Shown here piece after piece: positions 1-14,490 of a DNA stretch of 64,000 nt. The stretch is from positions 56,080 to 120,079 of the forward strand of contig NZ_LIHP01000012.1 of NCBI RefSeq assembly GCF_001314605.1. Direction: 5' to 3'. Under the pieces are notes generated by a model, which worked only from the letters and a program-made list of their open reading frames with translations, searched no databases and was not told the origin of the DNA. Numbering within the stretch: position 1 is the first letter of the stretch; the number at the start of each line of letters is the position of its first letter. The translations under genes and the position numbers were made by a program. This DNA is from Marinobacter sp. HL-58. GTDB lineage: Bacteria > Pseudomonadota > Gammaproteobacteria > Pseudomonadales > Oleiphilaceae.

Positions 1-5
1 AAGAC

Positions 6-404
6 ATGCGCCAGGCACTGCTTGACGTAGTGGAACAACGCCTGGAGGAAGCCAGCGCCGACCTCTGGCGACCGGCAGACAGGCATTTTCAGTTTATCCG
101 TTCCCAGATCGTGGTGTTCGGCACCGGTCGCAGTGTCCTGCAGCCGGAACAACTCGCCGAGGTGATTCCCGACCTGTCTCCCGGTAGCGTGTTCTATCAC
201 TTTATTGATGCCCGCCAGCGTTCGCCCCGGGGTGAAGACGACTTCCGGGCCTGGCTCTCACCAGAGGGGGAACGCTACGCCGGATTGTGCCAGGGGCTGG
301 CATCCATCGACCCCTACTTCGCCTCACTTCACGAACTGCGCGAGCAACTTGCCGCCCTGTTCTCCGAATTCCACGGGAGGTCCACCCATGTCAAACCTGC
401 TTGA
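6..404 (+). CDS. DUF5752 family protein, 5' end uncertain
   Basis: From the ATG at 6 this is a 132-residue protein resembling DUF5752, a family of unknown function often encoded beside TreT-type trehalose synthases. The family-like part starts near residue 28 (HFQFIRSQIVVF) and includes SVFYHFIDARQRSP and EDDFRAWL. The reading frame is open back to base 1, so the true start may lie outside the window and the N-terminal 27 residues may belong to a longer protein. The last 17 bases overlap the start of the trehalose synthase gene, which indicates co-transcription and translational coupling. The function is unknown; a role next to trehalose synthesis is inferred only from the neighbour. Confidence 0.6.
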   Translation: MRQALLDVVEQRLEEASADLWRPADRHFQFIRSQIVVFGTGRSVLQPEQLAEVIPDLSPGSVFYHFIDARQRSPRGEDDFRAWLSPEGERYAGLCQGLASIDPYFASLHELREQLAALFSEFHGRSTHVKPA

Positions 405-1629
405 GTCCTACGCTGAAGTTGTGGGCGCGGATATCGTCGACCAGCTCCGCCAGCTCGCCGAGCCCTTGCGCGGCATGAAGGTGGTTCATGTCAATTCCAC
501 GCGGGTCGGCGTGGGCGTCGCGGAAATCCTCGACAAGCTTGTGCCGCTGATGTGCGAACTCGGTCTGGATACCAGCTGGGAAGTGATCACCGGTGAGAGT
601 GATTTCTATCAATGCACCAAGTCTTTCCATAATGGCCTGCAGGGCCATCGCACGATGATCCCGGAACATCTGTTGCGGGCCTATGAAGAGACCAACGCCC
701 GGACGGCCGAGCGGCTGCGGCCGGTACTGGAAGACGCCGATATTGTCTTTATTCACGACCCGCAGCCGGCCCCTCTGATGGAGCTGTGTCCGGCACGAAA
801 AGGCACCTGGATATGGCGCTGCCATATCGACATCAGCCATCCGGATCGCCATATCTGGCGATATTTACGGGGATTTCTTACCGGCTATGACGCCAGTGTC
901 TTCTCTCTAGCCGGCTTCGCCCAGGCCCTCCCCCACCCGGAATACCTGATCCCGCCAAGTATCGATCCCCTCAGTGACAAAAACATGGAACTGAGCCAGG
1001 ATGAAATAGCCGCGGTTCAGAAGCAATTCGGTCTGGACTCCCATCGGCCGATGATCCTGCAGGTATCCCGCTTTGACCGTTTCAAGGACCCTCTTGGTGT
1101 CATTGAGGCCTACCGGCTGGCCCGGGAATTCATACCGGGCCTGCAACTGGTGCTGGCGGGCGGCACCGCCAGTGACGACCCGGAAGGTGAAGCAGTCTAT
1201 CGTGAGGCCGAAAATGCTGCCAACGGCGACACCGATATTCATTTGCTGCTGCTGGAACCGGACGCCCACCGAACCATTAATGCTCTCCAGCGTAGTGCCG
1301 ATATCGTGTTGCAAAAATCCCTGCGGGAAGGCTTCGGCCTGACTGTCGCCGAAGCCATGTGGAAGGGTAAACCGGTTATCGGGGGCGACACTGGTGGCAT
1401 TCGGCTGCAGGTGGTCAACTACCACACCGGTTTTCTGGTAAACACGCCCGAGGGCACAGCGTTGCGAATTCGCTATCTGCTGCAGCGGCCCGGCAGGGTG
1501 ACTGAGATAGGCGGAAAGGCGCGCCAGTTCGTGCGGGAAAATTTCCTGCTGACCCGCCAGTTGCGAGAGTATCTCACAATGATACTGGCCATTCGCGATG
1601 GCGATACAGACCGTATCGAGCTTTCGTAA
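388..1629 (+). CDS. treT: TreT-like trehalose synthase, GT4-family glycosyltransferase
   Basis: A 413-residue retaining glycosyltransferase. TreT enzymes join the glucose of a nucleotide sugar (ADP- or UDP-glucose) to free glucose to make trehalose, a compatible solute. Visible hallmarks are the N-terminal loop NSTRVGVGVAEIL (residues 36-48), the acceptor-region motif RCHIDISHPD, the family-specific stretch IPPSIDPLSDKN, and a C-terminal donor-site motif EGFGLTVAEAM with the two glutamates seven residues apart (E-x7-E). The ATG at 388 follows an AGG-rich site (GGGAGG at 375-380); the open frame upstream of it (205-387) only reads through the preceding gene. The enzyme probably acts in the cytoplasm. 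Donor specificity cannot be read from the sequence. Confidence 0.85.
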   Translation: MSNLLESYAEVVGADIVDQLRQLAEPLRGMKVVHVNSTRVGVGVAEILDKLVPLMCELGLDTSWEVITGESDFYQCTKSFHNGLQGHRTMIPEHLLRAYEETNARTAERLRPVLEDADIVFIHDPQPAPLMELCPARKGTWIWRCHIDISHPDRHIWRYLRGFLTGYDASVFSLAGFAQALPHPEYLIPPSIDPLSDKNMELSQDEIAAVQKQFGLDSHRPMILQVSRFDRFKDPLGVIEAYRLAREFIPGLQLVLAGGTASDDPEGEAVYREAENAANGDTDIHLLLLEPDAHRTINALQRSADIVLQKSLREGFGLTVAEAMWKGKPVIGGDTGGIRLQVVNYHTGFLVNTPEGTALRIRYLLQRPGRVTEIGGKARQFVRENFLLTRQLREYLTMILAIRDGDTDRIELS

Positions 1630-1683
1630 CAGCACTGGAGGATGGTTGCCAGGCAGACGGTTGCCCGTTACATAAAGTTTTGT

Positions 1684-1702
1684 GCACTCAGTGTCGGAGT
1701 GC
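1684..1702. repeat. Inverted repeat upstream of the Crp/Fnr-type gene
   Basis: GCACTC and GAGTGC are separated by 7 bases, 125 bp upstream of the regulator start at 1827. It could be an operator for autoregulation or for another factor. It does not match an FNR or CRP half-site, and no clear -35/-10 pair is visible beside it. Confidence 0.35.
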
Positions 1703-1826
1703 GGCTGTCTGACCTACACTTTTGTATTTCTGCTCTGAATGATTGCACTCACAATGAAGGCATCGGCTTTTTGGACTGGAATCCAACTCTTTAGCGCGGC
1801 TCGTCTGACCGCAAGGAGATAAAAGC

Positions 1827-2552
1827 ATGGAAAGTAGTCAAAAACTCTGGCCTGGAGGCAACGAGACTCAGACTATCAATTGGCAACAGACAATTACCCC
1901 ATTCAATGAAGAGTTCCTGACCGAACTTGAAAGCCTGATGGACATTGAATCCCACGCCTTTGAACTGAAACCCGGCAGCAAACTGTTCCGGCAAGGCAGT
2001 TCTGCTGATCGCTTCTACCTGATTCTGGATGGCTGTCTCAAGGAGTCATATGTAGATCAGGCGGGAATTGAGTCCATTCTCGGGTTTTACTACAGCAATG
2101 AATTTATGGGCCTGGAATCACTGGGTGAGCCCGCTTATGAGAAGACCGCTGAAGCGATCACCTCATGCCAGGTCTCTGGCATCCCCTGCCCTGAGCTTAA
2201 AAGCAATCTCTTCACAAAATCACCCGAACTTGAGCATTATGTATGGGGGATGATGGGAGAGGCGATAACCGCGGCAAGGAAGCGTGTAAACGTATTACAC
2301 CTGGAGGCAGCAGACCAGAAACTGGCTACCTTCCTGTTGGCACAATGTAAGCGGTTTTGCAGGATTGCCCCCATCCCACTGGAGATGCCGATGGCCCGCC
2401 AGGATATTGCCTGTTATCTGGGAATGTCTGCGGAAACACTCAGTCGTCTTTTCACCCGCTTTGAAGACAATGGCCTGATCCGTAGCACAAAAAAGCAAGT
2501 GGAAATCGTTGACCATGCAGGTTTGACAGCGCTGCTTCACAGGGAAGGATAA
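1827..2552 (+). CDS. Crp/Fnr family transcriptional regulator lacking Fe-S cysteines
   Basis: A 241-residue regulator with an N-terminal cyclic-nucleotide-binding-type beta roll (about 30-125), a long dimerisation helix (about 130-165) and a C-terminal winged helix. The recognition helix reads AETLSRLFTRF. It has the E-x-x-S-R signature (E203, S206, R207) that in FNR reads TTGA half-sites, so it probably shares targets with the FNR homologue at 13729. The FNR cluster cysteines are absent; the only cysteines are internal (C70, C114, C121, C174, C178, C196), so the input signal is unknown. A haem-binding (DNR-like), redox or ligand-free role is possible. GGAG-like spacing (AAGGAGAT at 1812-1819) supports the ATG at 1827. 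Confidence 0.85.
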   Translation: MESSQKLWPGGNETQTINWQQTITPFNEEFLTELESLMDIESHAFELKPGSKLFRQGSSADRFYLILDGCLKESYVDQAGIESILGFYYSNEFMGLESLGEPAYEKTAEAITSCQVSGIPCPELKSNLFTKSPELEHYVWGMMGEAITAARKRVNVLHLEAADQKLATFLLAQCKRFCRIAPIPLEMPMARQDIACYLGMSAETLSRLFTRFEDNGLIRSTKKQVEIVDHAGLTALLHREG

Positions 2553-2558
2553 CGTATG

Positions 2559-2587
2559 CCGCCGGAGGGCCGGAAACCTTCCGGCGG
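2559..2587. other. Strong hairpin between convergent genes
   Basis: CCGCCGGA (2559-2566) pairs with TCCGGCGG (2580-2587) just after the regulator stop, in the gap between two convergent genes. No T-run follows on either strand, so it is not a canonical intrinsic terminator. It may protect the 3' end or help Rho-dependent termination. Confidence 0.45.
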
Positions 2588-2655
2588 ATTGACAGCCCGA
2601 TAAACAATAACCGTGCTCACCGTAAGGGCGAGGCAGGGGCTCTGAGCGCTCTGAC

Positions 2656-3150
2656 TCAGCCTGCGAGCATCGCTTTATGGGGTTCGTGGTGCCCGCTGAC
2701 GTGCTTGAGAAACCCCATAACATCCGAAGCGTTAATCTGGCTGTTGCCGGCCTTCTTGCTGCGCGAAGGTGTTGCCTGAGCGAAGGAAAGGATATCACCC
2801 ATCGTCAGGATACCGGCCAACTGACCATACTGATTGGTGACCATAAGCCTGCGCACCTCATGTTGCTCCATCACGCCAAGAGCTTCCTGAATGTCGTCAT
2901 CCGGCCCGCAACAGAAGACTTCTTTACCGTTACTGACCTGCTCGGCCCTGATGTCCCAAAGCGGCTTGTGCTCAAGCGCTGCAGCCATGGCAATATCCCG
3001 ATCAGTGACAATACCCACGGGTCGTTGTTCATCATCGGTAATCGGTACCGCCCCACAATCGTTATCCCACATCAGGGTAGCGATTTCCTGCAGTGAGCTT
3101 TCAGGCGTGCATGAAACCACTTCACTTATCATTGCATCTTTTACCAGCAT
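2656..3150 (-). CDS. CBS-domain pair protein
   Basis: A 164-residue protein made of two CBS domains (about 7-60 and 75-128) and a short basic tail, with no attached catalytic or transport domain. CBS pairs usually bind adenosyl ligands such as AMP, ATP or SAM. The first domain has the typical start MLVKDAMISEVVSCTPESSL and the loop VGIVTDRDIA; the second has RRLMVTN and LAGILTMGDIL. A near-perfect Shine-Dalgarno (AGGAGG) precedes the ATG at 3150. The gene diverges from the ATP-grasp gene, and an FNR-type box at 3259-3272 sits about 31 bp upstream of a plausible -10, which suggests induction at low oxygen. Stand-alone CBS proteins are often part of anaerobic or stress regulons. The ligand and partner are not known. 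Confidence 0.85.
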   Translation of the reverse strand: MLVKDAMISEVVSCTPESSLQEIATLMWDNDCGAVPITDDEQRPVGIVTDRDIAMAAALEHKPLWDIRAEQVSNGKEVFCCGPDDDIQEALGVMEQHEVRRLMVTNQYGQLAGILTMGDILSFAQATPSRSKKAGNSQINASDVMGFLKHVSGHHEPHKAMLAG

Positions 3151-3231
3151 GAGAACCTCCTCCCGAGGATTGGATATTCAAACAGAAATCCTGCTCATAC
3201 CAGAGGACTGGCTCAAACAGGATGCCACTCA

Positions 3232-3272
3232 ATAGTAGGGCAGCGTTCCGGGACCTTCTTGACGGGAGTCAA
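3232..3272 (-). promoter_or_regulatory. FNR-type box and -10 for the CBS gene
   Basis: TTGAC-GGGA-GTCAA at 3259-3272 is a perfect 5+4+5 palindrome in the FNR/ANR arrangement. On the minus strand a -10-like TACTAT lies at 3237-3232. The distance between centres is about 31 bp, which puts the box near -41.5, the position of class II FNR activation. FNR consensus is TTGAT-N4-ATCAA; here both half-sites are the TTGAC variant. Confidence 0.65.
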
Positions 3273-3298
3273 CTGGGGCCCTGACAACTCTGCCCGGG

Positions 3299-3340
3299 TT
3301 GATTGCGGTCAAGTGCGGGGTACCCGGGGGAGGTTATGGT
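3299..3340 (+). promoter_or_regulatory. FNR-type box and -10 for the ATP-grasp/CocE operon
   Basis: TTGAT-TGCG-GTCAA at 3299-3312 differs from the FNR consensus at one base. A -10-like TATGGT follows at 3335-3340. Box centre to -10 centre is 32 bp, again class II geometry. The alternative -10 TATACG at 3344-3349 would place the box near -50. The leader to the ATG at 3384 would be about 37 bases. Confidence 0.65.
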
Positions 3341-3383
3341 TTTTATACGCTAGGTTAATGGTAATCACTGAGAGCATTCTGTT

Positions 3384-4727
3384 ATGGATCAAGAGAAGCC
3401 TCGTTGCAAAAATATCTTTGTACTCTGCCTGGATGATTTTCATCGTCGTGACCTGGAGCGCATACCGGATCGCGATAGCTTCCGATTCCATGGCTTGTTG
3501 ACCCTGGAGGAACTCCGGGGCAAGAGTGGTCAGGAAATCGACTCCGCCATAGCACGGGCAGAAGAACAGCTATCGGCTTTTGGTGGGCCCGTCGATGCCA
3601 TTATCGGTTACTGGGATTTTCCGGTTACCGCAATCAAAGCCATTCTTTGTGAGAAATTCGGGCTGCCATCGCCAGGCCTGGAACCGGTGCTCAAATGTGC
3701 CCATAAATACTGGAGCCGGCTGGAGCAACGCAGGCATATCCCGGAGCTTACCCCTGGTTTCTGCGCGGTTGACCCCTTCGCCCGGGATCCTTTCGAGGAT
3801 ATCACCCTGGACTTTCCTTTCTGGATCAAGCCTGTCTGCGGCTACGGGTCAATGCTGGGCTTCCGGATCAATAACCGGCGAGAATTCGATCGGGCCATGG
3901 ACATCACAAGGCGCAAGATCGGTTATCTTGGCGATCCTTTCAATGCCATCCTCGCCAGAGTTGATACCTCGGAACTCGGGGGAGTGGATGGCAAGCACAT
4001 GATCGCCGAAGAGTTACTGTCCGGCATCGAACTGGCGCCCGAAGGGTATGCTCAAGACGGAGAGGTCAAGGTCCATGGCGTGGTGGACATGGTGCGGGCC
4101 CCCAATCACAAGAGCTTCAAGTGTTATCGCTACCCGTCGTCCCATCTCCGGCGCATCCAGACCAGGGCCATCGACGCCACCAGGAAACTGTTACTGGGCG
4201 TCGGCTATAACAATGGCTGCTTCAATGTGGAGTATTTCTGGGACAAAGATACCGATGAAATGCGCATTGTCGAAGTCAATACCCGTATCTCACAGTCCCA
4301 CAGCAATCTGATGTTCAAGGTTGACGGCATGTCAAACTACGAGGTCGCCATCCATGTGGGGCTCGGCGACAACCCGCAGTACGAACATGGCGGTGGGCAG
4401 TTCAAAATGGCGGCAAAGTTTCTGCTTCGCCGCTTTGACACTGCGGATGCCCGCTGCCTCTCAGCACCGGGAGAAGAAGCGCTGGCGCGACTGTATCAGC
4501 GCCAGCCCGAGACCACCGTTTTCCTCCGGGTACGGGAAGGCATGCGCCTGAGTGAAGCTGCCGAGCAGGACCCGTATAGCTGGATACTGGCTGAATTGGT
4601 GATCGGTGGCGACGACATCCATGATCTTGATCGTAAATTCGATGAGGCCTCGGACCTTCTGCCATTCGAGTTCGAACCCGTCACCGGTTCCGAATCAGAA
4701 GCCTCCCATGGAAAGGTCCACGACTGA
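3384..4727 (+). CDS. ATP-grasp domain protein, probable carboxylate-amine ligase
   Basis: A 447-residue cytoplasmic protein. An N-terminal pre-ATP-grasp domain (about 1-110) is followed by an ATP-grasp fold. Visible are a lysine strand (FWIKPVCGYGSMLGF, 146-160), the EELLSGIEL segment with acidic nucleotide-binding residues, and the metal-binding pattern E-V-N-T-R-I-S (VEVNTRIS). ATP-grasp enzymes activate a carboxylate as an acyl phosphate and couple it to an amine or thiol, but the substrate cannot be read here. The stop overlaps the start of the next gene by one base (TGATG), so the two products are probably made in a fixed ratio. The start is preceded by only a weak GAGAG. Not a match I can place in RimK, Ddl, PurK or carbamoyl-phosphate synthase. 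Confidence 0.75.
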   Translation: MDQEKPRCKNIFVLCLDDFHRRDLERIPDRDSFRFHGLLTLEELRGKSGQEIDSAIARAEEQLSAFGGPVDAIIGYWDFPVTAIKAILCEKFGLPSPGLEPVLKCAHKYWSRLEQRRHIPELTPGFCAVDPFARDPFEDITLDFPFWIKPVCGYGSMLGFRINNRREFDRAMDITRRKIGYLGDPFNAILARVDTSELGGVDGKHMIAEELLSGIELAPEGYAQDGEVKVHGVVDMVRAPNHKSFKCYRYPSSHLRRIQTRAIDATRKLLLGVGYNNGCFNVEYFWDKDTDEMRIVEVNTRISQSHSNLMFKVDGMSNYEVAIHVGLGDNPQYEHGGGQFKMAAKFLLRRFDTADARCLSAPGEEALARLYQRQPETTVFLRVREGMRLSEAAEQDPYSWILAELVIGGDDIHDLDRKFDEASDLLPFEFEPVTGSESEASHGKVHD

Positions 4728-6796
4728 TGACTACCCCTGAAGAGCCCGTTGCGGATACCCTGCACACCATTGATCCGGAACAACTTCCCGTCCGTGTAAG
4801 GTGCATCGAGAACATCTGGATTCCCATGGCGGACGGGGCCAGTCTCGCCGCCCGTTTGTGGCTGCCGGAAGATGCTGAACAGCGGCCGGTGCCGGCACTG
4901 ATCGAGTACATTCCTTACCGCAAGCGCGATCTCACCCGGGCCCGCGATGAGATCAACCAGCCCTATCTGGCGGGCCATGGCTATGCCTGTCTGAGGATTG
5001 ATCTACGTGGTAGCGGTGATTCTGACGGTGTACTGCGGGACCAGTATCTGGAGCAGGAACTGAGCGATGGCGAGACCTGTGTTGCCTGGGCCGCAGCCCA
5101 GCCCTGGTGTAATGGCAAGGTCGGCATGTCGGGTATCTCCTGGGGCGGCTTCAATGCCCTGCAGATAGCCGCCCGTCGGCCCCCGGCACTCAAGGCCATT
5201 ATCGCCGCCTGTGCCACGGACGACCTTTATGCCGATAACATGCACTACATGGGGGGCTGCCTGCTGGCCGATAACCTGTCCGAGGCGACCACCATGTTCG
5301 GCCACACAAGCTGCCCGCCCGACCCAGAGATCGTGGGTGACCGGTGGCGGCAGATGTGGCTGGACCGACTCGCCGAAAGCGGTCTTTGGCTGGATATCTG
5401 GCTCCGTCACCAGCACCGTGACAGTTTCTGGACCCGGGCATCTGTCTGCGAAGACTACGCCGCAATTAACTGCCCGGTGATGGCAGTCAGTGGCTGGGCG
5501 GATGGCTACACCAATGCCGTATTCCGCCTTCTGGAGCACCTGAAGGTGCCCCGCCAGGGACTTATCGGCCCCTGGGGACACAAGTTTCCACACCAGGGAA
5601 TCCCGGGCCCGGCCATCGGCTTTTTACAGGAAGTTGTACGCTGGTTCGATCATTGGCTCAAGGATATCGATAACGGCATTGAAGACGAGCCGATGTTGCG
5701 GGCCTGGATGCAGGACAGCATACCGCCATCAACGCGCTACCAGCACCGCCCGGGACGTTGGGTGGCGGAACAGAGCTGGCCCTCAACGAGGGTTAAGCAA
5801 CTGCCTCTGACAATGACCCGCTACCACCTGTTGTTTCCGGGCGAGAAAAGGGGGAACGCGCAGGCAACCACGGACTGCATTCAGTCGCCTCTGACCCTGG
5901 GACTGTTCGCTGGCAAGTGGTGCTCCTACCCGGCTGCGCCGGACCTTCCCCACGACCAGCGCCAGGAAGACGGCGGTGCCCTGCTGTACACCTCGGCACC
6001 GTTGGCAGAACCTCTGGAGATCCTGGGGGCAGCCGAGGTTGAACTGTCCATATCGGTCAACCGCCCCGTTGCCCAGGTATGCGTCCGCCTGGAAGATGTA
6101 CTTCCTGACGGCAAGGCCACCCGGGTCACCTACGGGCTGCTGAACCTCACTCACCGCCACGGCAGCGAATCACCAAAGCCGGTGCAACCGGGCAAGCGTT
6201 ATCTTGTGCGGGTTCCGATGAACCATGTGGCCCAGTCCTTTGCCCGGGGGCACCGGATAAGGCTGGCCATAAGCAGCTCCTACTGGCCTCTGGCATGGCC
6301 GTCTCCTGAGCCCGTTGAGCTTTCCCTGGCACCACTGGAAAGCCGGTTGCTGCTGCCCTGCCGCACTCCGGCTGCGGAGGATTCGACACTACGCCCTTTG
6401 GGCCCGCCCGAGGGCGCTCCCCCGCTGCAACACACCCTGATTGAACCGGAACATCATAACTGGCTTGTGCATCGCAACCTTGAGCTCGACAGCTCTGAAC
6501 TGGAGGTGATCAGGGACAGTGGCACCTGGCTGATTGATGATATCGGCCTGACGGTCAGCGCCCGGGTTGACGAGTGGTACCGGAGCCGGGATGACGAGTT
6601 TGCGTCGGTGTCAGGGGAAACCCGAACGTTTCGGGAATTCCACCGCGGAGACTGGCGGGTAACTATCCGGACCCGAACCAGGGTCACCTCGTCAGCCACG
6701 GACTTTTATATTGTCGCCGAGATCGATGCCTGGGAAGGAGACAAACGTATTTTTTGCCACAACTGGGACCGGAAGATTCCCCGTGATTTGCTTTGA
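4727..6796 (+). CDS. CocE/NonD family alpha/beta hydrolase
   Basis: A 689-residue serine hydrolase of the cocaine-esterase / X-Pro dipeptidyl-peptidase family. The nucleophile elbow is GISWGG with Ser138; Asp259 (WADGYTN) and His285 (GPWGHKF) complete a probable triad with family spacing. A C-terminal jelly-roll region (about 390-560) follows, then about 120 extra residues. Family members cleave acyl esters or Xaa-Pro peptides. No signal peptide is visible, so it is probably cytoplasmic. It is translationally coupled to the ATP-grasp gene, so one enzyme may form, and the other cleave, an amide or ester of the same small molecule; that is inference. Confidence 0.8.
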   Translation: MTTPEEPVADTLHTIDPEQLPVRVRCIENIWIPMADGASLAARLWLPEDAEQRPVPALIEYIPYRKRDLTRARDEINQPYLAGHGYACLRIDLRGSGDSDGVLRDQYLEQELSDGETCVAWAAAQPWCNGKVGMSGISWGGFNALQIAARRPPALKAIIAACATDDLYADNMHYMGGCLLADNLSEATTMFGHTSCPPDPEIVGDRWRQMWLDRLAESGLWLDIWLRHQHRDSFWTRASVCEDYAAINCPVMAVSGWADGYTNAVFRLLEHLKVPRQGLIGPWGHKFPHQGIPGPAIGFLQEVVRWFDHWLKDIDNGIEDEPMLRAWMQDSIPPSTRYQHRPGRWVAEQSWPSTRVKQLPLTMTRYHLLFPGEKRGNAQATTDCIQSPLTLGLFAGKWCSYPAAPDLPHDQRQEDGGALLYTSAPLAEPLEILGAAEVELSISVNRPVAQVCVRLEDVLPDGKATRVTYGLLNLTHRHGSESPKPVQPGKRYLVRVPMNHVAQSFARGHRIRLAISSSYWPLAWPSPEPVELSLAPLESRLLLPCRTPAAEDSTLRPLGPPEGAPPLQHTLIEPEHHNWLVHRNLELDSSELEVIRDSGTWLIDDIGLTVSARVDEWYRSRDDEFASVSGETRTFREFHRGDWRVTIRTRTRVTSSATDFYIVAEIDAWEGDKRIFCHNWDRKIPRDLL

Positions 6797-13482: not shown

Positions 13483-13728
13483 ACCGGCGTTTTCTTACCG
13501 GTTACATAGTGCTCCAATAACCGCCTTGGCCCATACAACCGGTTCCGGCTGCCGAACACGGGCGTTCCCTGCCTGAAAGCCAGCCCTGCGAATTCTGAGC
13601 AAAGTAATGGAAACCACATTGCGCTTTCTATATTATTTTTCTGTCGCATCCTGCAGGCGGTTAGAGCGGATTGCGATTGTAGACTTGGCGCCCAACAGCT
13701 GATGTTTTCATGGACCGGAGCACCTGTC

Positions 13729-14490
13729 ATGCCGCAGACCAGGGATTCAGTCAGGCCAGATGGCCTAATAGCCCGCCTCAACCCACGCGCATCGGATTGT
13801 TTCTCATGCGCCCGACGTTCATCCTGCCTGGCAGGCGATCTGAACGACGGCCAACTGGCTGATTACAATAGCCGGATCCAGCAAAATCAGACTTACCAGC
13901 CCGGAGACCCTGTATTTACAATGGGTGAGCCCTTCCAGGGAATGTACATCGTCAAGTCCGGTTTTTTCGAATCCTATTCGGTGACCGAGGATGGCAATTC
14001 AAAGGTGACCGGATTCTATATTGCGGGTGACATCTTTGGCCTCGAGAGTATTGGCGAAGGGGGCCATACCTATACCACAGAAGCGCTGAGTGTCGGATCA
14101 GCGTGCCTTGTCCCGCTCTCATTGTTGCGGGAAAACTCCGAAACCGGCCTGGCACTTCTGCATAAGATGCTCGAACTCATGGGCCGCATCATATTGAGCG
14201 ACAGAGCGTTGATTTACTCATTGGCCACAATGAATGCCAGTCAGCGCATCGCCACCTTTCTCGTCAATCTGACAACCAGAATGGAGCATGCCGGTTTCCG
14301 GAAGGGTGAGCTGGTGCTTCACATGCACCGCATTGATATTGGCAGCTATCTGGGACTGGCTGAAGAAACCGTAAGCCGTGTGTTCTCCCGCTTTCATGAT
14401 CGGGGAATCCTCAGAATCAGGCGGCGTTACATCAAACATTATGACCTGGATGGCTTGCGCGCGATTGCGCGCGGTGACATTCAGTGCTGA
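13729..14490 (+). CDS. fnr: FNR/ANR-type oxygen-sensing regulator
   Basis: A 253-residue Crp/Fnr regulator that keeps the [4Fe-4S] ligands of FNR. Cys24, Cys27 and Cys33 are spaced C-x2-C-x5-C exactly as in E. coli FNR, and Cys126 sits in SACLVPLS, equivalent to FNR Cys122. The recognition helix EETVSRVFSRF has the FNR E-x-x-S-R signature. Loss of the cluster in oxygen would switch it off. I chose the ATG at 13729, 8 bases after GGAG, over the ATG at 13702. It lies directly after the VTT operon, and two FNR-type boxes sit upstream at 3259 and 3299, so it is a likely regulator of this block, though it may also be the global Anr. Confidence 0.85.
   Translation: MPQTRDSVRPDGLIARLNPRASDCFSCARRSSCLAGDLNDGQLADYNSRIQQNQTYQPGDPVFTMGEPFQGMYIVKSGFFESYSVTEDGNSKVTGFYIAGDIFGLESIGEGGHTYTTEALSVGSACLVPLSLLRENSETGLALLHKMLELMGRIILSDRALIYSLATMNASQRIATFLVNLTTRMEHAGFRKGELVLHMHRIDIGSYLGLAEETVSRVFSRFHDRGILRIRRRYIKHYDLDGLRAIARGDIQC

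Follow-up and report, generated by a model that had tools for sequence, protein, structure and literature searches.

The gap of 233 bp between a gene for a two-CBS-domain protein and a divergent ATP-grasp/CocE pair holds two palindromes of the FNR type, which raises the question of whether each of them controls the operon that it faces, and of which regulator and signal would then be at work. The window (the whole stretch of 64,000 nucleotides that was analysed) starts at position 56080 of contig C3 in an assembly of 4.24 Mb and 21 contigs (G000). In window coordinates, the elements of the locus are:

2656–3150, minus strand: two-CBS-domain protein of 164 aa (Pfam CBS, two stretches)
3232–3237, minus strand: TACTAT, a −10-like hexamer for the CBS promoter with its centre 31 bp from that of box 1; predicted start at about 3224
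3259–3272, no strand assigned: FNR-type box 1, exact match, placed as for class II activation of the CBS gene and conserved at CBS relatives
3299–3312, no strand assigned: FNR-type box 2, exact match, placed as for class II activation of the ATP-grasp/CocE operon and not conserved at the examined homologues
3335–3340, plus strand: TATGGT, a −10-like hexamer for the ATP-grasp promoter with its centre 32 bp from that of box 2; predicted start at about 3347
3384–4727, plus strand: ATP-grasp enzyme of 447 aa (Pfam ATP-grasp_4), encoded first in the divergent operon
4727–6796, plus strand: CocE/NonD-family hydrolase of 689 aa (NCBIfam TIGR00976, above cut-off), whose start overlaps the ATP-grasp stop codon

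Boxes, facing hexamers and their spacing

As proposed in the first-pass annotation, box 1 (TTGACGGGAGTCAA) and box 2 (TTGATTGCGGTCAA) match TTGAY-N4-RTCAA exactly, and they are the sole exact matches in the window, where 0.34 would be expected and where two or more appeared in 3 of 100 shuffles. When up to one mismatch is allowed, the window contains nine matches against 5.55 expected, an unremarkable number, so that only the exact pair stands out. The box centres lie at 3265.5 and 3305.5, that is, 40 bp apart. The outward −10-like elements claimed at 31–32 bp from each centre were also found as described: TACTAT, read from 3237 to 3232 on the minus strand, is 31 bp centre to centre from box 1, and TATGGT, on the plus strand, is the top-scoring hexamer facing box 2, at exactly 32 bp. 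Each of these hexamers fits four of six positions, which counts against a class II reading. In simulations from the intergenic composition, a hexamer fitting at least four positions and keeping A2 and T6 arises at an offset of 31–32 with a probability of 0.025 per promoter and 0.0006 for both, values that become 0.06 and 0.004 under the same rule at offsets 30–34. Each strand of the gap carries three hexamers of this quality, TACTAT and TATGGT among them. A generic scan of 3140–3400 for sigma-70 promoters and terminators gave no match. A large inverted repeat (3258–3279/3292–3313, 77%) was read as a by-product of the two palindromes.

Genome-wide, the exact pattern was located at 29 places in the 4.24 Mb (being palindromic, it is listed on both strands) compared with 7 for a reversed-pattern control, so that any single site could be due to chance. 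A simple ORF rule leaves 24 of the 29 boxes outside the deep interior of ORFs, a few of which still overlap shorter or extended ORFs. Genes adjoining the boxes, named by eye from translated starts, include anr-like, universal-stress-protein-like and narK-like ones.

The position of the boxes relative to their promoters was then analysed by scoring TATAAT-likeness at each of the 50 offsets between 10 and 59 bp on the gene-facing side. For 25 box-gene pairs of this genome, oriented by hand and representing 22 of the 29 boxes (five boxes deep in ORFs and those at L228 and L231 left out; three divergent ones entered once per side), the mean −10 score was highest at offset 32, with P = 0.0005 at that offset and 0.035 over all offsets. 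A set of eight pairs from cluster or known-type genes, named before its scores were seen and excluding the two focal pairs, peaked at the same offset (P = 0.0005; 0.054 over all offsets). The 23 own pairs other than the focal two still peaked at 32 (P = 0.008), with an all-offset value of 0.28 that is not significant. In the case of the CBS orthologues, 15 of 24 relatives were kept, eight having been dropped because they showed no box within one mismatch and L187 because its stretch was too short, and the peak at 32 was matched by 0 of 2000 at that offset (P = 0.001 over all offsets). Nine further diverged CBS relatives also gave a peak at 32 (all-offset P = 0.008), to which no weight was given because they were hand-picked after their hexamers had been seen. 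On the flank without a facing gene, scored for 19 pairs, there was no peak at 32 (P = 0.29), the maximum lying at 49. The narK-like and PCMT genes are plausible targets, yet they have no good hexamer at 31–33.

With 32 bp between the −10 centre and the box centre, the box falls at about −41.5, where FNR sits at class II promoters. Class II geometry, which had been ascribed to both boxes in the first-pass annotation, is supported by the two facing hexamers and by the genome's own mean score. In Escherichia coli, the site lies within four bases of the class II position at 19 of the 23 FNR-activated promoters whose start is known (PMC3688515), and in Sphingopyxis granuli most Fnr boxes of regulated operons are located there (PMC7713065).

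Conservation at related loci

Matches to the CBS protein were found in 16 of 124 genus genomes (1e-20) and in 9 of 369 genomes of a class sample (1e-25), the own genome being included in both counts. Within the 300 bp upstream of CBS, 16 of 24 relatives have a box that deviates from the pattern at no more than one position, three of them with an exact one; many of these relatives are close kin, and one genome contributes two copies (L177 and L188). Simulation produced a mean of 1.1 box-bearing relatives and a maximum of 4 in 200 runs. Among the class-sample relatives, such a box occurs in five of eight (L219, L220, L222, L223 and L226). Eight of the 24 showed no box within one mismatch upstream of CBS (L178, L182, L184, L185, L019, L221, L224 and L225).

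The 36 other loci with ATP-grasp homologues (23 of 80 from one homologue set and 13 from genome searches, some rows being probably one genome under two ids, such as L082 and L159) were inspected over 350 bases upstream, with positions counted from the start of the match. An exact box turned up at a single locus (L083, Vreelandella glaciei) and a one-mismatch box at three more (L080, L081 and L088), those of L080 and L081 being too near the start codon for class II. Conservation in relatives was a test set beforehand for both boxes, and the expectation was borne out at the CBS promoter and failed at the ATP-grasp/CocE one. As the box is kept at CBS relatives and not at the ATP-grasp loci examined, it seems to be of old standing upstream of CBS, and the one at ATP-grasp seems new or local.

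The genes for ATP-grasp and CocE themselves keep together, a CocE match lying in the fetched DNA at 84 of 110 ATP-grasp loci (an overlapping set that includes the own ones and some short flanks). Many of the named hosts of these loci are halophiles.

Taken from the sequence, the explanation that we favour, and regard as quite probable, is a divergent promoter region where both operons are under class II control by an FNR-type protein, the case being strong for the CBS promoter and good, though unconserved, for ATP-grasp/CocE. The 233-bp gap would carry two FNR-type activator sites, with one dimer of the active regulator presumably bound to each palindrome. An FNR/ANR-type protein with an iron-sulfur cluster would be active at low oxygen, and the bound dimer would recruit RNA polymerase from about −41.5, box 1 serving the CBS gene leftward and box 2 the ATP-grasp/CocE pair rightward. 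Control of CBS would be the old, conserved part of this arrangement, the ATP-grasp/CocE operon being located here in this lineage and having a box of its own. The acting protein may be an Anr-like protein encoded on contig C1, a regulator with a Cys motif encoded at 13702, or a Cys-less one encoded at 1827.

Candidate regulators and alternative readings

The genome has eight HTH_Crp_2 matches above cut-off. The two candidates that lie in the window are:

1827–2552, plus strand: Crp/Fnr regulator without N-terminal Cys motif, recognition helix E-x-x-S-R (Pfam, alignment); candidate local regulator
13702–14490, plus strand: FNR-type regulator bearing the Cys motif C-x2-C-x5-C and an E-x-x-S-R recognition helix (alignment, PDB, NCBIfam)

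The FNR homologue that the first-pass annotation had placed 10 kb away is the second of these, whose gene lies 10 kb past the last box; the nearer Crp/Fnr gene at 1827–2552 had been missed, and the Anr-like protein is encoded on C1, a contig other than that of the window. The 13702–14490 protein matches FNR in the PDB with an E value of about 5e-42 and reaches 165.8 bits with the NCBIfam Fnr model, below its cut-off of 228; its best match in the 124 genus genomes is 35% identical. An E-x-x-S-R helix in an FNR-like context is common to the Anr-like, 13702 and 1827 proteins, and two further proteins (on C12 and C8) have it by a looser match. The Cys motif is found in the first two of these three and is absent from the 1827 protein. 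The genome thus encodes FNR-type proteins with both Cys motif and E-x-x-S-R helix, as would be expected for FNR class II promoters.

That the boxes are used instead by the Cys-less 1827–2552 protein or by a DNR-type protein, with NO or another signal in place of oxygen, is a possibility of some standing that we nevertheless hold to be rather doubtful; it concerns the identity of the binder and in this respect overlaps the class II reading. The 1827–2552 gene is convergent with the CBS gene and ends 103 bp from its stop codon, and together with the E-x-x-S-R helix this proximity speaks for a local role. In addition, a Crp/Fnr gene recurs near CBS (flanks of about 1.5 kb) in three of the 24 relatives (G017, G071 and G080) and in Marinimicrobium L077. 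However, the helix alone does not separate these regulators, and among solved structures the 1827–2552 protein matches an FNR regulator best (7.5e-24) and DNR much more weakly (3.2e-12), despite its missing Cys motif. Moreover, the CBS box of the genus is kept in genomes with no close relative of this protein, whose best match elsewhere in the 124 genus genomes is 34% identical (up to 35% among the matches listed). The CBS-adjacent regulator of G017 carries the Cys motif, and in M. orientalis (L082) a Crp/Fnr gene comes directly after CocE.

A second question is whether the two boxes work separately, as in the favoured divergent arrangement, or as one shared switch, where each dimer would sit at −41.5 for its own promoter and at about −81.5 for the opposite one. 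We judge the shared switch improbable. If true, the two operons would be coupled, their response to falling oxygen may be sharpened or capped, and the ATP-grasp/CocE pair would have joined the low-oxygen programme as a lineage-specific addition. The layout resembles that of E. coli yfiD, with FNR sites at −40.5 and −93.5, in combining a class II site with a second, upstream FNR site; it differs in that the second site lies here at about −81.5 and is the class II site of the other operon. The 14-bp palindrome and the 31–32 bp between box and −10 centres are those of FNR/ANR class II promoters; the present case differs in having a separate box, 40 bp from the other, for each of two divergent operons. 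In the direct FNR regulon of E. coli, a single site was present in 89% of the peaks (PMC3688515). What is most unusual about the locus is this double-box layout, in which either site also stands at about −81.5 relative to the opposite promoter.

FNR control could also be limited to the CBS promoter, box 2 then matching by chance or serving as an additional, modulating site of that promoter, with ATP-grasp/CocE driven otherwise. The lack of conservation of box 2 at the examined ATP-grasp homologues fits this option, as does the presence of the ATP-grasp and CBS genes on different contigs in M. changyiensis (G006) and in G015. On the other hand, box 2 is exact and has its best facing hexamer at exactly 32 bp, and by hand arithmetic only about 0.02 pairs within 100 bp are expected for 29 random sites, which argues against chance; we consider control of CBS alone unlikely. 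Lastly, CRP (cAMP) sites or chance palindromes are a most improbable explanation. In its favour, Crp and Fnr sites are related and the reversed control did yield its 7 sites; but the half-site here is TTGAY and not the TGTGA of CRP, and the enrichment, the −10 spacing and the conservation all stand against it.

The neighbouring cluster and known low-oxygen systems

In the favoured reading of class II control at both operons, the box pair looks like a sound, ordinary instance of known low-oxygen gene control. A stretch of 35 kb that ends at the box pair (C3:24677–59391, comprising L067, L068 and window positions 1–3312) holds 7 of the 29 boxes, against about 0.24 expected by hand arithmetic for a stretch picked once the sites were known. 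Its Pfam families include phasin, PhaC, GlgB, GH57, GH77, trehalose phosphatase, TreT, Hsp20, GAPDH, PfkB, PEP synthase/PPDK, PCMT with erythromycin esterase, a P-type cation ATPase and NAD-dependent DNA ligase. No universal stress protein was detected among the 27 proteins scanned, which represent part of the ORFs; a gene of that likeness with a box lies elsewhere (L232). With its storage, stress and sugar genes, the cluster has the look of an island for survival at low oxygen.

A comparable case is the lxa locus of Burkholderia cenocepacia, a low-oxygen cluster of 50 genes that includes an FNR gene of its own (PMC4505428) as well as alpha-crystallin (of the Hsp20 kind) and phosphofructokinase genes (PMC6127331). 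A locus of the lxa type would also be expected to hold several universal stress proteins. The likeness is at family level, with Hsp20 and PfkB in the 35-kb cluster and Crp/Fnr genes at 1827 (no Cys motif) and 13702, while richness in glycogen and trehalose genes sets the present cluster apart. By gene families alone, the cluster may thus be seen as resembling low-oxygen loci such as lxa. With regard to the CBS protein, predicted FixK regulons of alpha-proteobacteria include a CBS protein (PMC2908626), and a Bradyrhizobium differential-expression table features CBS proteins, PCMT, PEP synthase and phasin, one CBS protein being named as raised in microoxia (PMC6515984). Unlike the protein studied here, those FixK/FNR cases belong to another bacterial class, and they are likened to it by the CBS domain alone. 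None of the papers searched brought together Marinobacter, FNR, anaerobic and CBS domain.

Three other places on the same contig deserve mention in their own right. A lone exact box (L068:4939–4952, C3:41019) lies between a DNA ligase gene and a divergent ORF and has −10-like hexamers 32 bp off on both sides, each only the second best in range; it may be one box serving two class II promoters. A gene of the alpha-amylase/trehalose-synthase kind appears as two ORFs of 386 and 432 aa (L068:15288–17965, C3:51368–54045), with a Pfam match in the first only, and is perhaps split by a frameshift or an assembly error. Finally, an ORF of 598 aa that matches the CBS protein weakly (E = 2.1e-4) has an exact box at its start (L076:3070–3083, C3:151070), and the hexamer CACAAT lies 32 bp from this box.

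The main value of these results is for the annotation of low-oxygen regulons. Two exact predicted transcription starts are supplied, and the −10 score averaged by box offset provides a simple check of class II geometry that is usable on other genomes. Altogether, probable control by low oxygen in a Marinobacter-type bacterium is linked to a CBS protein whose FNR-type box is conserved and to an ATP-grasp/CocE enzyme pair that is uncharacterised.
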